In this document: positions 13,023 to 22,653 of the stretch, piece by piece
Layout of the letters: the number at the start of each line of letters is the position of its first letter
Position numbering within the stretch: the first letter of the stretch is position 1
DNA from: Ascidiaceihabitans sp.
GTDB taxonomy: Bacteria > Pseudomonadota > Alphaproteobacteria > Rhodobacterales > Rhodobacteraceae
Length of the DNA stretch: 64,000 nt
Direction: 5' to 3'
Assembly: GCA_028825475.1 (NCBI GenBank)
Contig: JAPKAB010000002.1
Span: 1-64,000 of the forward strand
Position numbers and translations under genes: made by a program
The notes under the pieces: model-generated
Told to the model about the DNA's origin: nothing
Databases searched by the model: none
What the model saw: the letters and a program-made list of their open reading frames with translations, nothing else

Positions 13023-15377
13023 TCAATTCGGAATCAAATCCGGAAGGAAAGTTACTACGCTTGGGAAGGTCCACAACAGGGCCAAGCCTGCAATTTGGAT
13101 CAACACGAACGGGACAATTCCACGATAGATGTGACGCGTCGTGACCTCTTTTGGTGCAACCCCGCGCAAGTAGAACAGCGCAAAACCAAATGGCGGTGTC
13201 AGGAACGAGGTCTGCAAGTTGACCGCGATCATGATCGTTACCCATTTAGGGTCGAACGTGCCGCCATAAATAACGGGACCTACGATCGGAATGACAATGT
13301 AAATGATCTCTAGGAAATCAAGGACAAAGCCCAAGACAAACAACACCAACATCACGATCAAGAACACCGTGATCTCGTTATCAAACGACTTGAGGAACTG
13401 TTGAATGTAGTGTTCGCCCCCAAAACTAATAACGACAAGGTTCAACAACTGAGAACCGATCAGGATCGTGAAGACCATCGATGTCACCTTGGCAGTCTCA
13501 CGCACAACAGGGGTCAAGACACCAGATGTGAACAAAATCCAGCACGAGAACAGCAAGCCAAACATGGCATACAGATAGGCACCGTAGGCTACGAAGAAGG
13601 CAAACCAACTTTCAAAGGTTACGTCATCCTGATTGATCCGTAGATCAAAGTTGATGCCGACAAGGATACAAACCCCAATTGCAACAGTTGACCAGATGAT
13701 CACCTTCGGTGAACGATCAGTGTCAGACAGCTTGCGATAGGCGGCTAGCATGATTGCGCCCCCTGCCCCAAGTGCAGCCGCCGGTGTCGGATTGGTGATC
13801 CCCCCTAGGATTGAGCCAAGCACGGCAACGATTAGCATCAATGGTGGGAAGACAACGCGGATCAACTCGTTCTTCGCGCACATCGCAGCAGCATGAACGA
13901 CACCGTACAAGACTGCCACAAAAGGCAAGAACATGATCACAACGTAAAAGCCCGCGGAATTGGAAGGACCCAATACAACAATATCCACCAACAAAGCCAC
14001 CAAGACGCCAATTCCACCGATGATGAGTGGCCGTGTATCAGCAGACGGGGAAACGCCACGTCCAATGACCATCACAAGGCTGAACAACAACAGCAAGATC
14101 GCCGTGCCTGTCCCGATGGGTGCCGCCCCATCGATTTTGGCTTGTTGTGCAAGGGCGAATGCATCTTCTGACAGGCGTTCAGATTGAGCAACACCACCAG
14201 CAGCCTCAATAGCCACTTGCTGTGCGATTGCAGCATCCCATGCTGGGAGGCCATGCAACTCGATCATTGCAACCTTACATGCCTCAGACACATTGGTCCG
14301 CAGTGATGCACTTTCCCCGATGTCAGAGAAGGATGAAATTACGGTGCTTTGACCACCTATGATCCCCAAATTACCCAAGAGAACTGTTCCAACAACCAAT
14401 GCGATTGGCACGAGTAGGAAAAATGTCATCGCTTCACTACGTGTGACCGGCTCAGAGCTTGTTGTCCCCATTTGAACCGCTGGTGCTTTGTCTGGGTTCA
14501 GCAAAGCGTAACCAAATGCATAAAGCGCATAAAGAACTGCGAGCAAGATCCCTGGTACCAATGCCGCTTGGAACAAGGTACCAACAGACAGGACCGCAGG
14601 TTCCCCAAGATAGCTTAGGGCATCTGTACAGCCAACTGAAATTGCGCGGGCTTCTTGTGCCGAGGAATACAAATCCCCCGCTAAAGTGCCCAGTAAAACG
14701 ATCACGATTGAGGGTGGAATAATCTGCCCCAAAGTACCTGAAGCCGCAATAACCCCTGTCGCAATCTCGGGACTGTACCCATTGCGTAACATTGTTGGTA
14801 GGGCAAGCAATCCCATCGTCACAACAGTTGCGCCCACAATGCCAGTCGACGCGGCAAGGAATGCACCAACGACAACAACGGACACAGCCAGACCACCGGG
14901 TAACGGGCCAAAGACACGCGCCATTGTTGTTAGCAAATCATTTGCAATTTTAGAACGCTCTAGGGTGATCCCCATAAGAACAAACATCAAAACGGCCAAA
15001 AGGGTTTCAATGGATTGTCCTGCCAGAACACGCTCGTTCATGCGGTTCACAACAAAGGATACATTGCGGTCCATCGCCACTTCCCAGCCTTTAGGGAATA
15101 CAGCTTCGGCAACGCGTGGCAGCTCAGGATACCTGAATATACTGATTTTATCCGCACCAACTCCTGCAGTGATCAAATCCTGATACATCTGGCTGGAGTC
15201 ATCGATCGCTTGGTGGATCAACAGGCCCGCGCTGTCTAAAGACGCGATAATACCGAAAGAAATGATACCAGCACCACCAATGGCAAACGCCACTGGAAAG
15301 CCGGAAAGAATACCACCAAACAGGGTGATAAAGACAATGATCAGGCCAACTTCTACGCCATCAAGTCCAAACAACAT
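13023..15377 (-). CDS. dctM: TRAP transporter large permease subunit (DctM-type, long form)
   Basis: Large membrane subunit of a sodium-driven TRAP importer. It is 784 residues, against about 430 for the compact form. The N-terminal GVEVGLIIVFITLFGGILSG and GFPVAFAIGGAG match the DctM start, LMGITLERSKIANDLL and GTLGQIIPPSIVIVLLG are conserved TRAP blocks, and DFLEIIYIVIPIVGPVI with LTPPFGFALFYLRGVAP close it. The extra length comes from a long loop around residues 110-150 and from an additional central domain and helices (about residues 290-520). The gene overlaps the dctQ stop by one base (TGATG). Large-form DctM subunits typically go with TakP-like binding proteins. Confidence 0.93.
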   Translation of the reverse strand: MLFGLDGVEVGLIIVFITLFGGILSGFPVAFAIGGAGIISFGIIASLDSAGLLIHQAIDDSSQMYQDLITAGVGADKISIFRYPELPRVAEAVFPKGWEVAMDRNVSFVVNRMNERVLAGQSIETLLAVLMFVLMGITLERSKIANDLLTTMARVFGPLPGGLAVSVVVVGAFLAASTGIVGATVVTMGLLALPTMLRNGYSPEIATGVIAASGTLGQIIPPSIVIVLLGTLAGDLYSSAQEARAISVGCTDALSYLGEPAVLSVGTLFQAALVPGILLAVLYALYAFGYALLNPDKAPAVQMGTTSSEPVTRSEAMTFFLLVPIALVVGTVLLGNLGIIGGQSTVISSFSDIGESASLRTNVSEACKVAMIELHGLPAWDAAIAQQVAIEAAGGVAQSERLSEDAFALAQQAKIDGAAPIGTGTAILLLLFSLVMVIGRGVSPSADTRPLIIGGIGVLVALLVDIVVLGPSNSAGFYVVIMFLPFVAVLYGVVHAAAMCAKNELIRVVFPPLMLIVAVLGSILGGITNPTPAAALGAGGAIMLAAYRKLSDTDRSPKVIIWSTVAIGVCILVGINFDLRINQDDVTFESWFAFFVAYGAYLYAMFGLLFSCWILFTSGVLTPVVRETAKVTSMVFTILIGSQLLNLVVISFGGEHYIQQFLKSFDNEITVFLIVMLVLFVLGFVLDFLEIIYIVIPIVGPVIYGGTFDPKWVTIMIAVNLQTSFLTPPFGFALFYLRGVAPKEVTTRHIYRGIVPFVLIQIAGLALLWTFPSVVTFLPDLIPN

Positions 15378-17844: not shown

Positions 17845-19275
17845 ATGACCCGACTATTTCCATTTCTCCGACTGACTTACGGACTGAAACTGTCACTTGT
17901 TGCGGCTGTTCCTTTGATCCTCGCGGTAGCAGCGATTTCAACACTTGTGACCGTTCAATCGCGCACACTTGCGGAGCGTGAAATCAAGTCATTGGAAGCT
18001 CAGCTTCTTGCCGCAAAAAAAGAAGAATTGCGTAATTACGTGACCCAAGCCCGCAACGGATTTTACTTTATCTACGGCAACGCGGCCCCAAATGACGAAG
18101 TTGCAAAAAGACGCGTCCGTCAAATCTTATCCGCGATGATTTACGGCGATGATGGGTTCTTTTTCGTCTATGATTATGATGGCACAAATCTTGTTAGCCC
18201 GCGCCAAACAAATCGCATCAATCAAAACTGGTCAGGTGAAACAAACCGCGAAGGCGTTGCGGTGGTCGATGACTTAATTATGATTGCACGCCAAGGCGAT
18301 GGATACCTAACCCACCTCTGGCCTAAACCCTCCACGGGCGAAGAAGGACGTATGATCACTTATGTCACCTCTTTCCCATCATGGCGGTGGGCAGTCGGAA
18401 CAGGCGTGTTCATCGATGACGTACTTTCCTCTATCGCAACGGCCCGCGCAGAAGTCGAAGCTCGTGTGAAACGTACCTTCGGATATATTTCAGTTATTAC
18501 ATTGACTGCGTTGGTTATGGTTTTCGGTTCAGGAATGGTCATCAACTTCCGCGAAAGACGGTTGGCTGATGCCAAACTAAAGAAGCTAACCCAGCGCGTA
18601 TTCGATGCTCAAGAAGAAGAACGTGGACGTGTAGCCCGCGAACTGCATGATGGTATCAGTCAAATTCTCGTTGGTGTGCGGTTTTCTTTAGACAGTGCGC
18701 GCCGTCGATTGGCCCAAGGAGCACCTGACGCCGACAGTTCGCTTGAGCAAGGTATCGAAAATCTTGGCACGGCGATTACCGAAGTCCGCCGCATTAGCCG
18801 CGATCTGCGTCCTGGTGTGCTGGATGATCTCGGATTGGGGCCTGCTTTGAAGACTTTGGTTGAAGACTTTGAGGAACGAACAGGAATTGAGACTGAGTTT
18901 GAAACAGCCGTCTTTCGCAACCGTTTGGACTCCAACGCAAAAACTGCTCTTTATCGTATCGCCCAAGAGGCTTTGACAAATATCGAACGACACGCCAGCG
19001 CTACACGCACCGCTGTAGATATGCGTGGGCACAAAAACGGAGCCACTCTGAAAATCAGTGACAACGGGTGCGGAATTAACGCAACCACGCGCAAACGCGG
19101 GGCAGGAGTTGGACTGCGTAATATGGAAGAACGTGTCGAACAATTGGATGGTCAACTCACCATTCGTTCCTCTCATGGACCAAATGGTGGAACAGTCATC
19201 CTTGCAACTGTGCCCTTGACCCGCCTGCTTTCCCCAGAGATCAAGGCGCAACCCAAATTCGAAGGCGACACATGA
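17845..19275 (+). CDS. Sensor histidine kinase with extracytoplasmic Cache domain
   Basis: Two-component sensor of 476 residues. Membrane segment 1 is around residues 16-37, a periplasmic single-Cache domain runs to about 208 (GDDGFFFVYDYDGTNLVSP and FPSWRWAVGTGVFIDDV), and membrane segment 2 is about 212-234. A HisKA_3 helix follows with phospho-acceptor His268 in RVARELHDGISQIL. The HATPase domain has an N box near 374-385 (QEALTNIERHA), DNGCGI near 407 and GVGLRNMEERV. It is coupled to the response regulator by an ATGA overlap. By analogy with DctS of Rhodobacter capsulatus it probably senses the ligand of the divergent TRAP importer. Confidence 0.92.
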   Translation: MTRLFPFLRLTYGLKLSLVAAVPLILAVAAISTLVTVQSRTLAEREIKSLEAQLLAAKKEELRNYVTQARNGFYFIYGNAAPNDEVAKRRVRQILSAMIYGDDGFFFVYDYDGTNLVSPRQTNRINQNWSGETNREGVAVVDDLIMIARQGDGYLTHLWPKPSTGEEGRMITYVTSFPSWRWAVGTGVFIDDVLSSIATARAEVEARVKRTFGYISVITLTALVMVFGSGMVINFRERRLADAKLKKLTQRVFDAQEEERGRVARELHDGISQILVGVRFSLDSARRRLAQGAPDADSSLEQGIENLGTAITEVRRISRDLRPGVLDDLGLGPALKTLVEDFEERTGIETEFETAVFRNRLDSNAKTALYRIAQEALTNIERHASATRTAVDMRGHKNGATLKISDNGCGINATTRKRGAGVGLRNMEERVEQLDGQLTIRSSHGPNGGTVILATVPLTRLLSPEIKAQPKFEGDT

Positions 19276-19916
19276 CCCTGCCCATCCGTGTATTGATTGT
19301 TGACGACCACCCAATGGTTGCCCAAGGCATCCAATCCGTTCTGGAAAGTTATTCAGAACTCGAAATCGTGGGCACCTTAAACAATGGCCGCGCTGTTGTT
19401 GAACAGCTTGAGACACTGAACCCGGATGTAATCCTGATGGATCTGAACATGCCAGAGATGGGTGGACTAACTGCAACAGAGTTGGTTATTGAACGACGGC
19501 CTGGAACTCGCGTTCTGATTCTATCGATGCACGACAGCCCAGAATATATCGTCTCTGCCCTTTCTCACGGTGCCATGGGGTATATTTTGAAAGACGTACC
19601 GACCGACGAAATCAAACTAGCTATTGATGCCGTAATGGGCGGCGAACGGTACTTGTGTACGGGTGCTGCCGGATCGTTGAAGCCAAAAGCCGATGGTGCG
19701 CGCGAAGCCTTAACTGGGCGTGAGCAGACTATCCTACTGCAAGTCGCCCAAGGAAAATCCAACAAAGATGTGGCTGCAGAATTGGAAATTTCCGTTCGCA
19801 CGGTGGAAACTCACCGTAAAAACATCAAACGTAAATTGGGCATCTCATCAACCGCCGGTTTGACACGTTACGCTATGGAACATGGGGTGCTGCAGGGGAC
19901 CGGAACCGTTCGGTAG
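19272..19916 (+). CDS. NarL/LuxR-type response regulator
   Basis: A 214-residue response regulator. The receiver domain has the acidic pair Asp11/Asp12, phospho-acceptor Asp57 in DVILMDLNMPEMGG, Ser/Thr in LILSMHD, and Lys in YILKDVPTDE. The C-terminal LuxR helix-turn-helix (about residues 147-200) reads LTGREQTILLQVAQGKSNKD and SVRTVETHRKNIKRKLGI. It is coupled to the kinase gene. The likely target is the divergent dctPQM promoter in 17580-17844, as for DctR. Confidence 0.95.
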   Translation: MTLPIRVLIVDDHPMVAQGIQSVLESYSELEIVGTLNNGRAVVEQLETLNPDVILMDLNMPEMGGLTATELVIERRPGTRVLILSMHDSPEYIVSALSHGAMGYILKDVPTDEIKLAIDAVMGGERYLCTGAAGSLKPKADGAREALTGREQTILLQVAQGKSNKDVAAELEISVRTVETHRKNIKRKLGISSTAGLTRYAMEHGVLQGTGTVR

Positions 19917-20052: not shown

Positions 20053-20081
20053 TTGACGACCCACAAATCGGCCAATATTGT
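20053..20081 (+). promoter_or_regulatory. Sigma-70-type promoter of the ilvBN leader
   Basis: TTGACG (20053-20058) and TATTGT (20076-20081) are separated by 17 bases, close to the housekeeping consensus. Transcription would start near 20088, giving a leader of about 165 bases that contains the leader peptide and attenuator. Confidence 0.7.
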
Positions 20082-20111
20082 GGACTTGAGTAAATGAGGG
20101 GCCCTTCAGGT

Positions 20112-20159
20112 ATGACACATGTCGTCGTCATTTTAGGAACACAGCGCATGGTCCGGTAA
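20112..20159 (+). CDS. ilvL: ilvBN leader peptide
   Basis: A 15-codon reading frame encoding MTHVVVILGTQRMVR. Five consecutive codons (20121-20135) are Val-Val-Val-Ile-Leu, the three end products of the pathway controlled by the downstream genes. GAGGGG at 20096-20101 is a plausible ribosome site, 10 bases before the ATG. The stop at 20157-20159 comes just after the first arm of the alternative hairpin. This is the classic arrangement for transcription attenuation by a branched-chain leader peptide. Confidence 0.88.
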   Translation: MTHVVVILGTQRMVR

Positions 20160-20211
20160 CGGAACGCCATTTCGGTACCCATGCGCCCCCGCCAATCGGG
20201 GGCTTTTTTTT
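20144..20211 (+). terminator. ilvBN attenuator: antiterminator and terminator pair
   Basis: The terminator is GCCCCCG (20185-20191), loop CCAAT, CGGGGGC (20197-20203), then eight T. A competing stem is GCGCATGG (20144-20151) with CCATGCGC (20179-20186), which overlaps the 5' terminator arm by two bases. If the ribosome stalls at the Val/Ile/Leu codons, the 20144 arm is free and the competing stem can form. If it reaches the stop codon, it covers that arm and the terminator can form. The pairing is seen in the sequence; the switch is inferred. Confidence 0.85.
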
Positions 20212-20251: not shown

Positions 20252-22003
20252 ATGACACGCCAAATGACCGGAGCAGAAATGGTTGTTCAAGCCTTGATAG
20301 ATCAAGGTGTGGATACAGTCTTTGGATACCCGGGTGGTGCCGTCCTCCCAATTTACGATGCGATCTTTCAGCAAAATCACATCAAACACGTTCTGGTGCG
20401 CCACGAACAAGGTGCTGTTCACGCAGCCGAAGGGTACGCCCGTTCCACAGGTAAACCTGGCGTTTGCCTGGTAACATCTGGTCCAGGTGCCACGAACGCC
20501 GTTACTGGCCTAACGGACGCCCTGCTCGACAGCATTCCAATCATCGTTTTGACGGGCCAAGTACCAACATTCATGATCGGTTCCGACGCGTTCCAAGAAG
20601 CTGACACCGTTGGCATCACACGTCCTTGCACCAAACATAATTGGCTAGTGAAAGAAACGAATGCGCTGGCTAGCGTTTTGCACGAAGCATTCCACGTCGC
20701 TACAAGCGGTCGCCCTGGTCCTGTTTTAGTCGACATCCCAAAAGATGTTCAATTCGCGAGTGGTAATTATAACGCACCACAGCCATCAACTTCCCATTAT
20801 CAGCCAACTGTTAAGGGCGACATCACTTCAATCACTGAACTGGTTGAAGCTATGGAAAAAGCAGAGCGCCCACTATTCTACACCGGTGGCGGCGTTATTA
20901 ACTCTGGTCCAGCAGCCAGCCAATTGTTGCGCGAACTTGTCGCCGCAACAAATTTCCCGATCACATCAACTTTGATGGGCCTTGGCGCATACCCAGCGTC
21001 TGGCGACAACTGGTTGGGTATGCTTGGCATGCACGGTTTGTACGAAGCAAACATGGCGATGCACGGTTGTGATCTGATGATCAACATTGGTGCCCGTTTC
21101 GACGACCGTATCACGGGTGTGATCAGCGAATTCAGTCCAAACTCAACCAAAGCGCATATCGATATTGATCCGTCCTCGATTAACAAAGTTATCCGCGTCG
21201 ACATTCCTATTGTTGGTGATGTGGGCCACGTTCTTGAGGACTTGATGAAAGTTTGGAAATCTCGTGGTCGTAAGACCAACTCTGCAGCCGTTGCAAACTG
21301 GTGGAGCCAGATCAAAGAATGGCAGGCGATTGAATGCTTGAAATTCACGCAGCAAGGCAAGGTTATCAAACCACAGTACGCCCTGTCCCGCCTCGAGGCT
21401 TTGACCAAGAACCACGACCGCTACATCACAACCGAAGTTGGCCAACATCAGATGTGGGCTGCGCAATACTTGGGCTTTGAAGACCCTAACCGTTGGATGA
21501 CTTCCGGTGGCTTAGGCACAATGGGTTACGGCTTCCCCGCCTCCATTGGTGTTCAAATGGGTCATCCAGAATCTCTGGTCATTAACGTGGCTGGCGAAGC
21601 AAGTTGGTTGATGAACATGCAAGAGCTGGGAACAGCAATGCAATACAACCTGCCCGTTAAGCAATTCATCCTGAACAACGAACGTTTGGGAATGGTACGC
21701 CAGTGGCAAGAATTGCTCCACGGTGAACGTTATTCTTCCAGCTGGTCTGAATCTTTGCCTGACTTTGTAAAGTTAGCTGAAGCGTTTGGTGCCAAAGGTA
21801 TCTTGTGCTCTGACCCTGATGATCTCGATGAAGCAATCATGGAGATGCTAAACCACGATGGCCCAGTTTTGTTTGATTGCTTGGTTGAGAAACACGAAAA
21901 CTGCTTCCCGATGATCCCCTCGGGAAAAGCACATAATGAAATGTTGCTTGGTGATGCTGACACTCAAGGTGCCATCGATGCCAAAGGATCAGTTTTGGTC
22001 TAA
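20252..22003 (+). CDS. ilvB: Acetolactate synthase, large (catalytic) subunit
   Basis: AHAS catalytic subunit, first step of Val, Leu and Ile synthesis, using TPP, FAD and Mg2+. The 583 residues follow the family throughout. Glu52 in VRHEQGAVHAAEGYA is the TPP-activating glutamate, and MGLGAYPASGDNWLGMLGMH and RFDDRITG lie in the FAD domain. The TPP/Mg site reads VAGEASWLMN...ILNN, with Glu449 (codon 21596-21598) where most relatives have the Asp of GDGS or GDAS. GGAG precedes the ATG. It lies behind the leader peptide and attenuator, with ilvN about 90 bases downstream. Confidence 0.97.
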   Translation: MTRQMTGAEMVVQALIDQGVDTVFGYPGGAVLPIYDAIFQQNHIKHVLVRHEQGAVHAAEGYARSTGKPGVCLVTSGPGATNAVTGLTDALLDSIPIIVLTGQVPTFMIGSDAFQEADTVGITRPCTKHNWLVKETNALASVLHEAFHVATSGRPGPVLVDIPKDVQFASGNYNAPQPSTSHYQPTVKGDITSITELVEAMEKAERPLFYTGGGVINSGPAASQLLRELVAATNFPITSTLMGLGAYPASGDNWLGMLGMHGLYEANMAMHGCDLMINIGARFDDRITGVISEFSPNSTKAHIDIDPSSINKVIRVDIPIVGDVGHVLEDLMKVWKSRGRKTNSAAVANWWSQIKEWQAIECLKFTQQGKVIKPQYALSRLEALTKNHDRYITTEVGQHQMWAAQYLGFEDPNRWMTSGGLGTMGYGFPASIGVQMGHPESLVINVAGEASWLMNMQELGTAMQYNLPVKQFILNNERLGMVRQWQELLHGERYSSSWSESLPDFVKLAEAFGAKGILCSDPDDLDEAIMEMLNHDGPVLFDCLVEKHENCFPMIPSGKAHNEMLLGDADTQGAIDAKGSVLV

Positions 22004-22092
22004 TGCCCGCGGGGCACCGCATCAGGTACCCTATCGGCCTACCTTTAACGGTTCAATCGCGAACCGATCAAATTTGACGAATGGAATTCGAT

Positions 22093-22653
22093 ATGTCTGA
22101 CCTCAATCTGAAAAAAGGCACCTCCGCCAAGTCCGCATATAACTTGCGCCCCAATTTTTCTGACATCGTTGAGCGCCACACACTGGCTGTTATGGTCGAA
22201 AATGAACCCGGCGTTCTAGCACGTGTTATCGGTCTGTTTGCAGGACGTGGCTACAATATCGAAAGCCTTACAGTTGCTGAGGTTGATCACGAAGGTAAGT
22301 TGTCGCGCATCACAATCGTGACCACGGGGACTCCACAAGTGATTGAACAGATTAAAGCACAGTTAGGCCGTATCGTTACAGTACACGATGTGCATGACCT
22401 AACGGTCGAAGGACCTTCTGTTGAGCGTGAATTGGCTATGTTCAAGGTTGCGGGCGATGGCGATAAACGCGTCGAAGCCCTCCGTTTGGCTGACATTTTT
22501 CGCGCAAACGTTGTAGACAGCACACTGAAAAATTTTGTGTTTGAAATCACTGGTGCACCAGAAAAAATCGATGCATTTGCAGATCTTATGCGCCCCCTTG
22601 GCTTGGTCGAAGTGGCAAGAACTGGCGTTGCAGCACTATCGCGCGGCATCTGA
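22093..22653 (+). CDS. ilvN: Acetolactate synthase, small (regulatory) subunit
   Basis: Regulatory subunit that activates IlvB and gives valine feedback inhibition. From the ATG at 22093 it has 186 residues (four more if the ATG at 22081 is used). The N-terminal ACT domain reads TLAVMVENEPGVLARVIGLF and FAGRGYNIESLTVAEVDHEG, and the C-terminal ALS_ss domain contains LADIFRANVVDSTLKNFVFE and GVAALSRGI. The short gap after ilvB holds a small inverted repeat (CGGTTC/GAACCG, 22049-22066). Confidence 0.95.
   Translation: MSDLNLKKGTSAKSAYNLRPNFSDIVERHTLAVMVENEPGVLARVIGLFAGRGYNIESLTVAEVDHEGKLSRITIVTTGTPQVIEQIKAQLGRIVTVHDVHDLTVEGPSVERELAMFKVAGDGDKRVEALRLADIFRANVVDSTLKNFVFEITGAPEKIDAFADLMRPLGLVEVARTGVAALSRGI

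Follow-up and report, generated by a model that had tools for sequence, protein, structure and literature searches.

In textbook attenuation, two RNA folds are mutually exclusive through shared bases. For alphaproteobacteria, an ilvB leader peptide is named as previously described with reference to Vitreschak 2004 (Corbino 2005, PMC1273637), and a Caulobacter leader is described with reference to Tarleton 1994 (Schrader 2014, PMC4117421). In the ilvBNC leader of C. glutamicum, antiterminator and terminator are adjacent, overlap at three bases (GCC) and reportedly need not unfold completely to switch (PMC11857589). Going by the passages of these papers cited here, both alphaproteobacterial ilv attenuation and the three-base-overlap switch of C. 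glutamicum are already published. New here are the anatomy of the attenuator, its distribution, and the proposed identity of the Rfam family Atu_C8 as this attenuator.

The ilvBN leader in the window and in Rhodobacterales

The leader described here precedes ilvBN in a 64,000-nucleotide stretch of DNA from Ascidiaceihabitans sp. (contig JAPKAB010000002.1, positions 1 to 64,000; hereafter the window). It is a real, conserved RNA switch, by which the bacterium probably induces its genes for valine, isoleucine and leucine when these amino acids are scarce. The original prediction had named a promoter, a 15-codon leader, an 8-bp antiterminator stem and a terminator with eight T in the correct order, and all of their coordinates were recovered in the sequence (Table 1). 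The stem, here called P1, has 8 bp in the window, and its 5′ arm indeed sits inside the last codons of the leader, whose translation reads M T H V V V I L G T Q R M V R stop. The predicted overlap of two bases with the terminator (GC, 20185-20186) is likewise present.

Table 1 Features of the ilvBN leader in the window, and matches to Atu_C8 in other loci.
Feature	Coordinates	Strand	Basis
Promoter, TTGACG (-35, 20053-20058), 17 nt, TATTGT (-10, 20076-20081)	20053-20081	+	sequence, pattern scan
Leader ORF, 15 codons and TAA, MTHVVVILGTQRMVR	20112-20159	+	sequence; homologous leaders
Control codons GTC GTC GTC ATT TTA (Val Val Val Ile Leu)	20121-20135	+	sequence
P1 5′ arm, GCGCATGG, within final leader codons	20144-20151	+	sequence, folding, alignment
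P2 hairpin, TCCG-GTAA-CGGA, within P1; stop TAA (20157-20159) in a GNRA tetraloop	20152-20163	+	folding
P3, weak 3-bp hairpin GCC-ATTTC-GGT, enclosed by P1	20166-20176	+	prediction only
P1 3′ arm, CCATGCGC	20179-20186	+	sequence, alignment
Intrinsic terminator stem, GCCCCCG-CCAAT-CGGGGGC, 7 bp, loop 5	20185-20203	+	pattern scan, alignment
T8 tract, directly after the terminator stem	20204-20211	+	sequence, pattern scan
ilvB, acetolactate synthase large subunit, regulated gene	20252-22003	+	above NCBIfam cut-off
ilvN, acetolactate synthase small subunit	22081-22653	+	above NCBIfam cut-off
Atu_C8 match on ilvI leader/terminator, L078	2798-2919
Atu_C8 match on ilvI leader/terminator, L241	1307-1421
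Atu_C8 matches on ilvI leader/terminator, L242, L243, L244, L247, L250, L255

The locus thus holds a short leader ORF rich in codons for amino acids of the pathway, an intrinsic terminator between leader and first gene, and a conserved second stem whose 5′ arm lies at the end of the leader, where ribosome position can select it; it is also a BCAA leader of the kind located 5′ of ilvI or ilvB in alphaproteobacteria. P1 takes only the first two of the seven bases of the terminator 5′ arm, and the leader is therefore filed as a variant and not as the classic form.

Taken by themselves, neither the promoter pattern (one found, mean 0.8 in shuffles) nor the terminator pattern (one found, 0.7 in shuffles) exceeds chance. 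The fold of the whole leader, 20088-20211, is unremarkable (z -1.07, 29 of 200 shuffles being equally good), and that of 20137-20211 is better than in shuffles (z -2.74). What lifts the unit above chance is its conservation across relatives.

Directly 5′ of ilvB, the window encodes a sensor kinase-like ORF and a LuxR-type response regulator (17845-19916, + strand), the latter resembling MctR below the cut-off (270.7 against 300 bits). By eye, this pair adjoins TRAP transporter-like genes on the opposite strand, and a 784-residue ORF (13023-15377, - strand) appears, by eye only, to be a TRAP large permease-like protein with long insertions.

Conservation was assessed in 97 Rhodobacterales loci (64 of 80 named loci, 30 further loci and three from a draw of genomes across the class), of which 96 offer 200 nt or more of upstream sequence. 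Which units enter the counts below is decided by a fixed set of limits on leader, P1 and terminator (the filter): a control run of at least three codons, P1 energy of at most -9, a P1-to-terminator gap of -5 to +10, a loop of 15-45 and a distance of 0-16. The filter was passed by 82 of the 96 upstream regions, the window copy (L082) included, and so a run of at least three Val/Ile/Leu codons, itself a filter criterion, is conserved to that extent, as the original prediction demanded of a true attenuator. TTGAC lies at most 110 nt 5′ of the leader in all 82 filtered Rhodobacterales units, and in 73 of the 77 filtered units from elsewhere that are described in the next section. The leader has exactly 15 residues in 75/82 Rhodobacterales units and ends in RMGR in 63/82. 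From the end of the control codons to P1 there are 7-8 nt in 67/82 Rhodobacterales units and 3-5 nt in 67/77 of the others.

Compared with the 79 matching ilvB genes, 79 Rhodobacterales leaders favour rare codons at their control positions, as seen for Val GTA (41% in leaders vs 5% in ilvB), Leu CTA (35% vs 2%) and Ile ATT (64% vs 16%).

Both stems of the unit are highly conserved. In the alignment of 80 Rhodobacterales sequences (A1), 99.8% of the cells in the terminator columns are paired, and five of the nine P1 pairs are without any variation; A1 was selected by [CT]GCATGG plus terminator, so that constancy of the P1 5′ arm is partly built in there (28 loci were skipped in its construction, and L072 and L078 were excluded as non-Rhodobacterales). 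The P1 arms read CGCATGG and CCATGCG in 71 of the 82 filtered units, which were not selected by these letters. A clear double change in P1 was found in one locus that is not part of A1 (L002), in which GCACATGGG is paired with CCCATGTGC. P1 beats dinucleotide shuffles in 37/82 Rhodobacterales sequences. The expectation that the competing stem would be conserved with compensatory changes is thus borne out: P1 is conserved, and the compensatory changes occur mainly outside Rhodobacterales, covariation within the order being weak because P1 is nearly invariant there.

Among the loci failing the filter, six (L034, L038, L051, L061, L077 and L106) keep the P1 5′ arm 5′ of ilvB, and no leader with the required Val/Ile/Leu codon run was found upstream of ilvB in them; they are possibly decaying or retuned attenuators. 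L022, L035, L037 and L107 have different upstream sequences and fail the filter, and a scan of the 400 nt preceding ilvB gave no such leader in L054, L055 and L062 (Paracoccus) or in L111.

A further element, absent from the original prediction, is the hairpin P2 around the leader stop codon. In 77 of the 82 Rhodobacterales units the stop codon forms the last three bases of G-URA (G-TAA or G-TGA), and in 75/82 at least three pairs flank the loop that contains it. All three P2 pairs in A1 show double changes, in five, one and one sequences. When P1 is enforced, the best fold places the stop codon in a hairpin loop in 53/82 Rhodobacterales units, the loop being GUAA or GUGA in 46, and does so in 64 of the 77 others, where the loop is usually not GNRA. 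Since the stop codon is inside both P2 and P1, a ribosome at the stop must open the two together.

The same unit outside Rhodobacterales

To the Rhodobacterales set were added upstream regions from a draw of 150 genomes of the order to which genome G200 belongs. Of these, 144 have the gene, and 90 upstream regions were examined: 69 give a match and 66 pass the filter. The drawn order is presumably Hyphomicrobiales, given the 92% identity between its best genes and the gene of Mesorhizobium sp. L-8-3. Together with 11 named loci and two sequences of the class draw, the order draw yields 77 distinct sequences, here called the others. They are mostly of the drawn order and include L064 (Neomegalonema, Rhodobacterales by taxonomy) and L074 (labelled Rhodobacteraceae), both of which have the wide-gap form. 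At L072 it is the RNA letters and not the RMG peptide that are conserved; in its stretch 2806-2915, the letters GCGCATGGG are read in another frame (W-R-A-W-A). The leader peptide of L322 is identical to that of L072.

P1 is much more variable in the others, with 47 forms of the first 8 bases of its 5′ arm among the 77 sequences vs 9 among the 82 of Rhodobacterales, and it beats dinucleotide shuffles in 71 of the 77. In an alignment of 76 of them (A2, L330 left out), P1 is paired in 90.7% of cells, seven of its eight pairs show double changes, and its covariation score is 0.516 vs 0.246 for shuffles and at most 0.130 for slid positions. RNAalifold found P1 unaided on A2. A second set, A3, was obtained from A2 by removing L064, L074 and five other rows of uncertain order; its 69 sequences comprise 63 from the order draw and six from named Hyphomicrobiales, with no Rhodobacterales rows. 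On A3 P1 was recovered in seven pairs and more weakly (energy -2.29), some arms having been aligned differently by MAFFT.

These alignments lead back to the window. With a covariance model built from A3 (R2), a search of the 64-kb window at E up to 10 gave a single match, the leader, which is full length but weak (18.5 bits, E 0.05). Across 379,692 bases from 49 of the 97 Rhodobacterales loci, R2 gives 36 matches, each just 5′ of ilvB. The model from A2 (R1), which contains L064 and L074, also has the leader as its only match in the window (16.8 bits, E 0.15) and gives 32 matches in the same 49 loci; a search of the window's own genome with R1 gave no match at E up to 10. The class draw gave a match in 178 genomes; upstream regions were examined for 129 of these, and three from the window's family were counted with Rhodobacterales. 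Only two of the 124 usable regions outside that family passed the filter, which indicates that the unit is not class-wide.

The breadth of sequence variation bears on one alternative, in which P1 and the inner hairpin act like phage put RNA, an antiterminator RNA that contacts RNA polymerase. The compact, conserved branched fold near the terminator speaks for it; the letters of P1 and of the inner hairpin vary widely outside Rhodobacterales, however, and we regard this as extremely unlikely.

P1, the terminator and the proposed mode of antitermination

The original prediction held that exclusion might be partly steric, unlike the classic design, and the geometry of the unit fits this suggestion. 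P1 and terminator overlap by 2 or 3 nt (a gap of -2 or -3) in 77 of the 82 Rhodobacterales units, and by three bases in 30/82. In the others the gap is 0 to +8 nt in all 77 units, within a filter that admits -5 to +10, and in the unfiltered matches of the order draw it is 0 to +8 in 66/69. Minimal overlap between P1 and terminator is therefore general in Rhodobacterales and zero in most relatives outside the order. A correlation between gap and terminator strength outside Rhodobacterales (rho 0.33, p 0.004) was left unused, since the gap necessarily becomes shorter as the stem called for the terminator becomes longer.

Sequestration of the terminator was assessed by folding the RNA downstream of a ribosome stalled at each control codon, truncated before the terminator 3′ arm. 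In the seven E. coli controls, most of the terminator 5′ arm is occupied by upstream pairing (0.71-1.0 at the best codon in 7/7, with medians over the control codons of 0.62-1.0). In the window, only the first two of the seven bases are occupied when the ribosome is stalled on codons 4-7. For the middle control codon, the mean occupancy of terminator bases 1-6 is 0.98, 0.97, 0.43, 0.08, 0.06 and 0.07 in Rhodobacterales and 0.03-0.23 in the others; occupancy of at least 0.6 at the best control codon was reached in 25/82 and 16/77 units, respectively. With the ribosome at the stop codon, the terminator 5′ arm is still paired upstream, with a mean of 0.25 in Rhodobacterales and 0.50 in the others, the latter exceeding the 0.18 of the median stalled codon; per-base values in the window are 0.01-0.64, and the hisL control keeps an occupancy of 0.74. 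This shows that P1 in the stalled state does not sequester the terminator, and it does not imply a clean separation of the two states.

Since upstream pairing fails to separate the two states in these leaders, another device was looked for. For either terminator arm, alternative partners in the leader or the stretch before it were on average no better than in dinucleotide shuffles (mean z -0.21 to +0.82); in each set, between 0 and 9 sequences fell below the 5% level. In full-length equilibrium folding, the window terminator is hardly lost on stalling (0.94 vs 0.99), and it falls below 0.5 in 8/82 Rhodobacterales and 1/77 of the others. We rejected this folding as a test of exclusion in favour of the truncated folds, as most E. 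coli controls are unchanged too: the terminator is clearly lost (0.0-0.1) at five of the seven control codons of pheL, a single codon of ivbL lowers it to 0.61 (from 0.79), and in the remaining five controls the change is at most 0.02.

The position of the ribosome gives P1 its direction. The edge of the ribosome footprint lies about 12 nt past the first base of the A-site codon. A stall on codons 4-7 would hence free 20144-20151 and a ribosome at the stop would cover it, which would make P1 the structure of the starved state, opposing termination. We infer stalling, antitermination by P1 and the steric step alike, the last because P1 takes only two terminator bases in the window and none in most relatives outside Rhodobacterales.

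We consider it likely that the leader is a ribosome-mediated transcription attenuator of ilvBN in which P1 antiterminates mostly sterically, with the shared GC helping in Rhodobacterales. Transcription would start near 20088, shortly downstream of the -10 box, and the ribosome would trail RNA polymerase along the 15-codon leader. With ample charged Val, Ile and Leu tRNA, the ribosome would reach the stop codon and cover the P1 5′ arm, and the terminator (20185-20211) would then release the polymerase. Were charged tRNA short, the ribosome would wait on codons 4-7 and leave 20144-20151 uncovered, P1 and its inner hairpins would form before the terminator 3′ arm exists, and transcription would proceed into ilvB. 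With P1 against the base of the terminator, or within about 8 nt of it, a second helix would clash with the exit channel of the polymerase; in Rhodobacterales, competition for the shared GC would add a small toggle.

The same attenuator may be read as relying solely on ordinary competition for pairing with the two or three bases that the helices share at their boundary, a low-barrier toggle of the kind proposed for C. glutamicum ilvBNC that needs no steric step in Rhodobacterales. In its favour, the overlap is near-general in that order, the shared columns stay paired in both helices in the alignments, and for C. glutamicum ilvBNC, where antiterminator and terminator adjoin and overlap at GCC, the cited passage reports mutational analysis (PMC11857589). 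All 77 other filtered leaders, however, are without overlap, so that overlap is not the general device, and we give this reading somewhat less than an even chance.

P1 does not sequester the terminator and lies at a short and fairly constant distance from it. It could instead serve mainly to keep polymerase and ribosome in step, as a pause or protector hairpin, with termination under starvation blocked by an unseen factor (Rho, NusG coupling or an unrecognised pairing). This appears unlikely to us: the scan gave no alternative pairing of the terminator arms above shuffles on average, and the freeing of P1 by a stall at the control codons is sensible only if P1 opposes termination.

A broader extension of the predominantly steric reading would make alphaproteobacterial ilv leaders a distinct class of attenuators, in which the starvation stem disables the terminator by position alone. 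The class would be defined by a covarying helix of free sequence at most about 8 nt from the base of the terminator, with a stop-codon hairpin inside, and the two-base overlap of Rhodobacterales would be a later refinement; we put this forward as a rather doubtful generalization.

Atu_C8 and comparison with known systems

An Rfam scan of the window gave eight matches at E up to 10, all below the cut-offs. One is RF02502, Atu_C8 (“Rhizobiales sRNA”; 15.2 bits, E 3.2, below the gathering cut-off of 50), which aligns P1 and shares GCGCATGG/CCATGCGC with the window. A match to asX2 (minus strand, E 0.026) was rejected, resting mainly on the terminator hairpin read backwards, and the remaining matches were taken as chance. 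In other loci, Atu_C8 was found above its cut-off in 1/15 and 7/20 of those submitted, all of them ilvI leaders (Table 1). Because the above-cut-off matches among the tested loci fall only on ilvI leaders, their position suggests that Atu_C8 is this attenuator in part of that order, although it is filed in Rfam as a small RNA gene and not as a leader.

The Rfam entry raises the further alternative that the main product is one acting in trans, either the terminated leader as a small RNA or the leader peptide, comparable to rnTrpL/peTrpL of Sinorhizobium as presented in the passage cited (PMC10117765). Besides the listing as an sRNA of the form matched in eight tested loci, the nearly constant P1 letters in Rhodobacterales and the RMGR ending of most leader peptides there speak for it; near-invariance of P1 in this order exceeds what structure alone requires, which counts against an account by attenuation only. 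All eight Atu_C8 matches, however, lie on the leader directly 5′ of ilvI, and the fixed cis order of promoter, leader, P1, terminator and ilvB is explained by attenuation. A primarily trans-acting product is accordingly very unlikely in our estimate, and the two roles are not mutually exclusive.

Two consequences follow for the description of such leaders. A covarying stem in two alphaproteobacterial orders shares two, three or no bases with the terminator, and an overlap so small or absent means either that adjacency suffices to stop an intrinsic terminator or that an unseen element exists; the attenuator set offers ready natural variants. In addition, a correction of the Atu_C8 entry is suggested, as a leader attenuator by position. 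In the open-licence papers searched, no description of the non-sequestering arrangement or of the stop-codon hairpin was found.

Compared with the alphaproteobacterial ilvBN and ilvIH attenuators, as these are cited in the passages above, the window shares an Ile/Val leader, a Rho-independent terminator and an acetolactate synthase operon. The attenuators of E. coli (trpL, hisL, leuL, thrL, pheL, ilvL and ivbL) likewise have a leader peptide with control codons and a terminator before the first gene. With the ribosome stalled at the best control codon they sequester 0.71-1.0 of the terminator 5′ arm, whereas in the present leaders pairing is largely confined to the first two or three bases of that arm or involves little of it. 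The nearest described design, as far as the cited passage presents it, is that of C. glutamicum ilvBNC, which has adjoining hairpins of minimal overlap as in the window; the likeness is one of design only, as it belongs to another phylum and has an additional antiantiterminator (PMC11857589). Against the three-base overlap given there for C. glutamicum, the overlap is two bases in the window, and leaders outside Rhodobacterales mostly have none.
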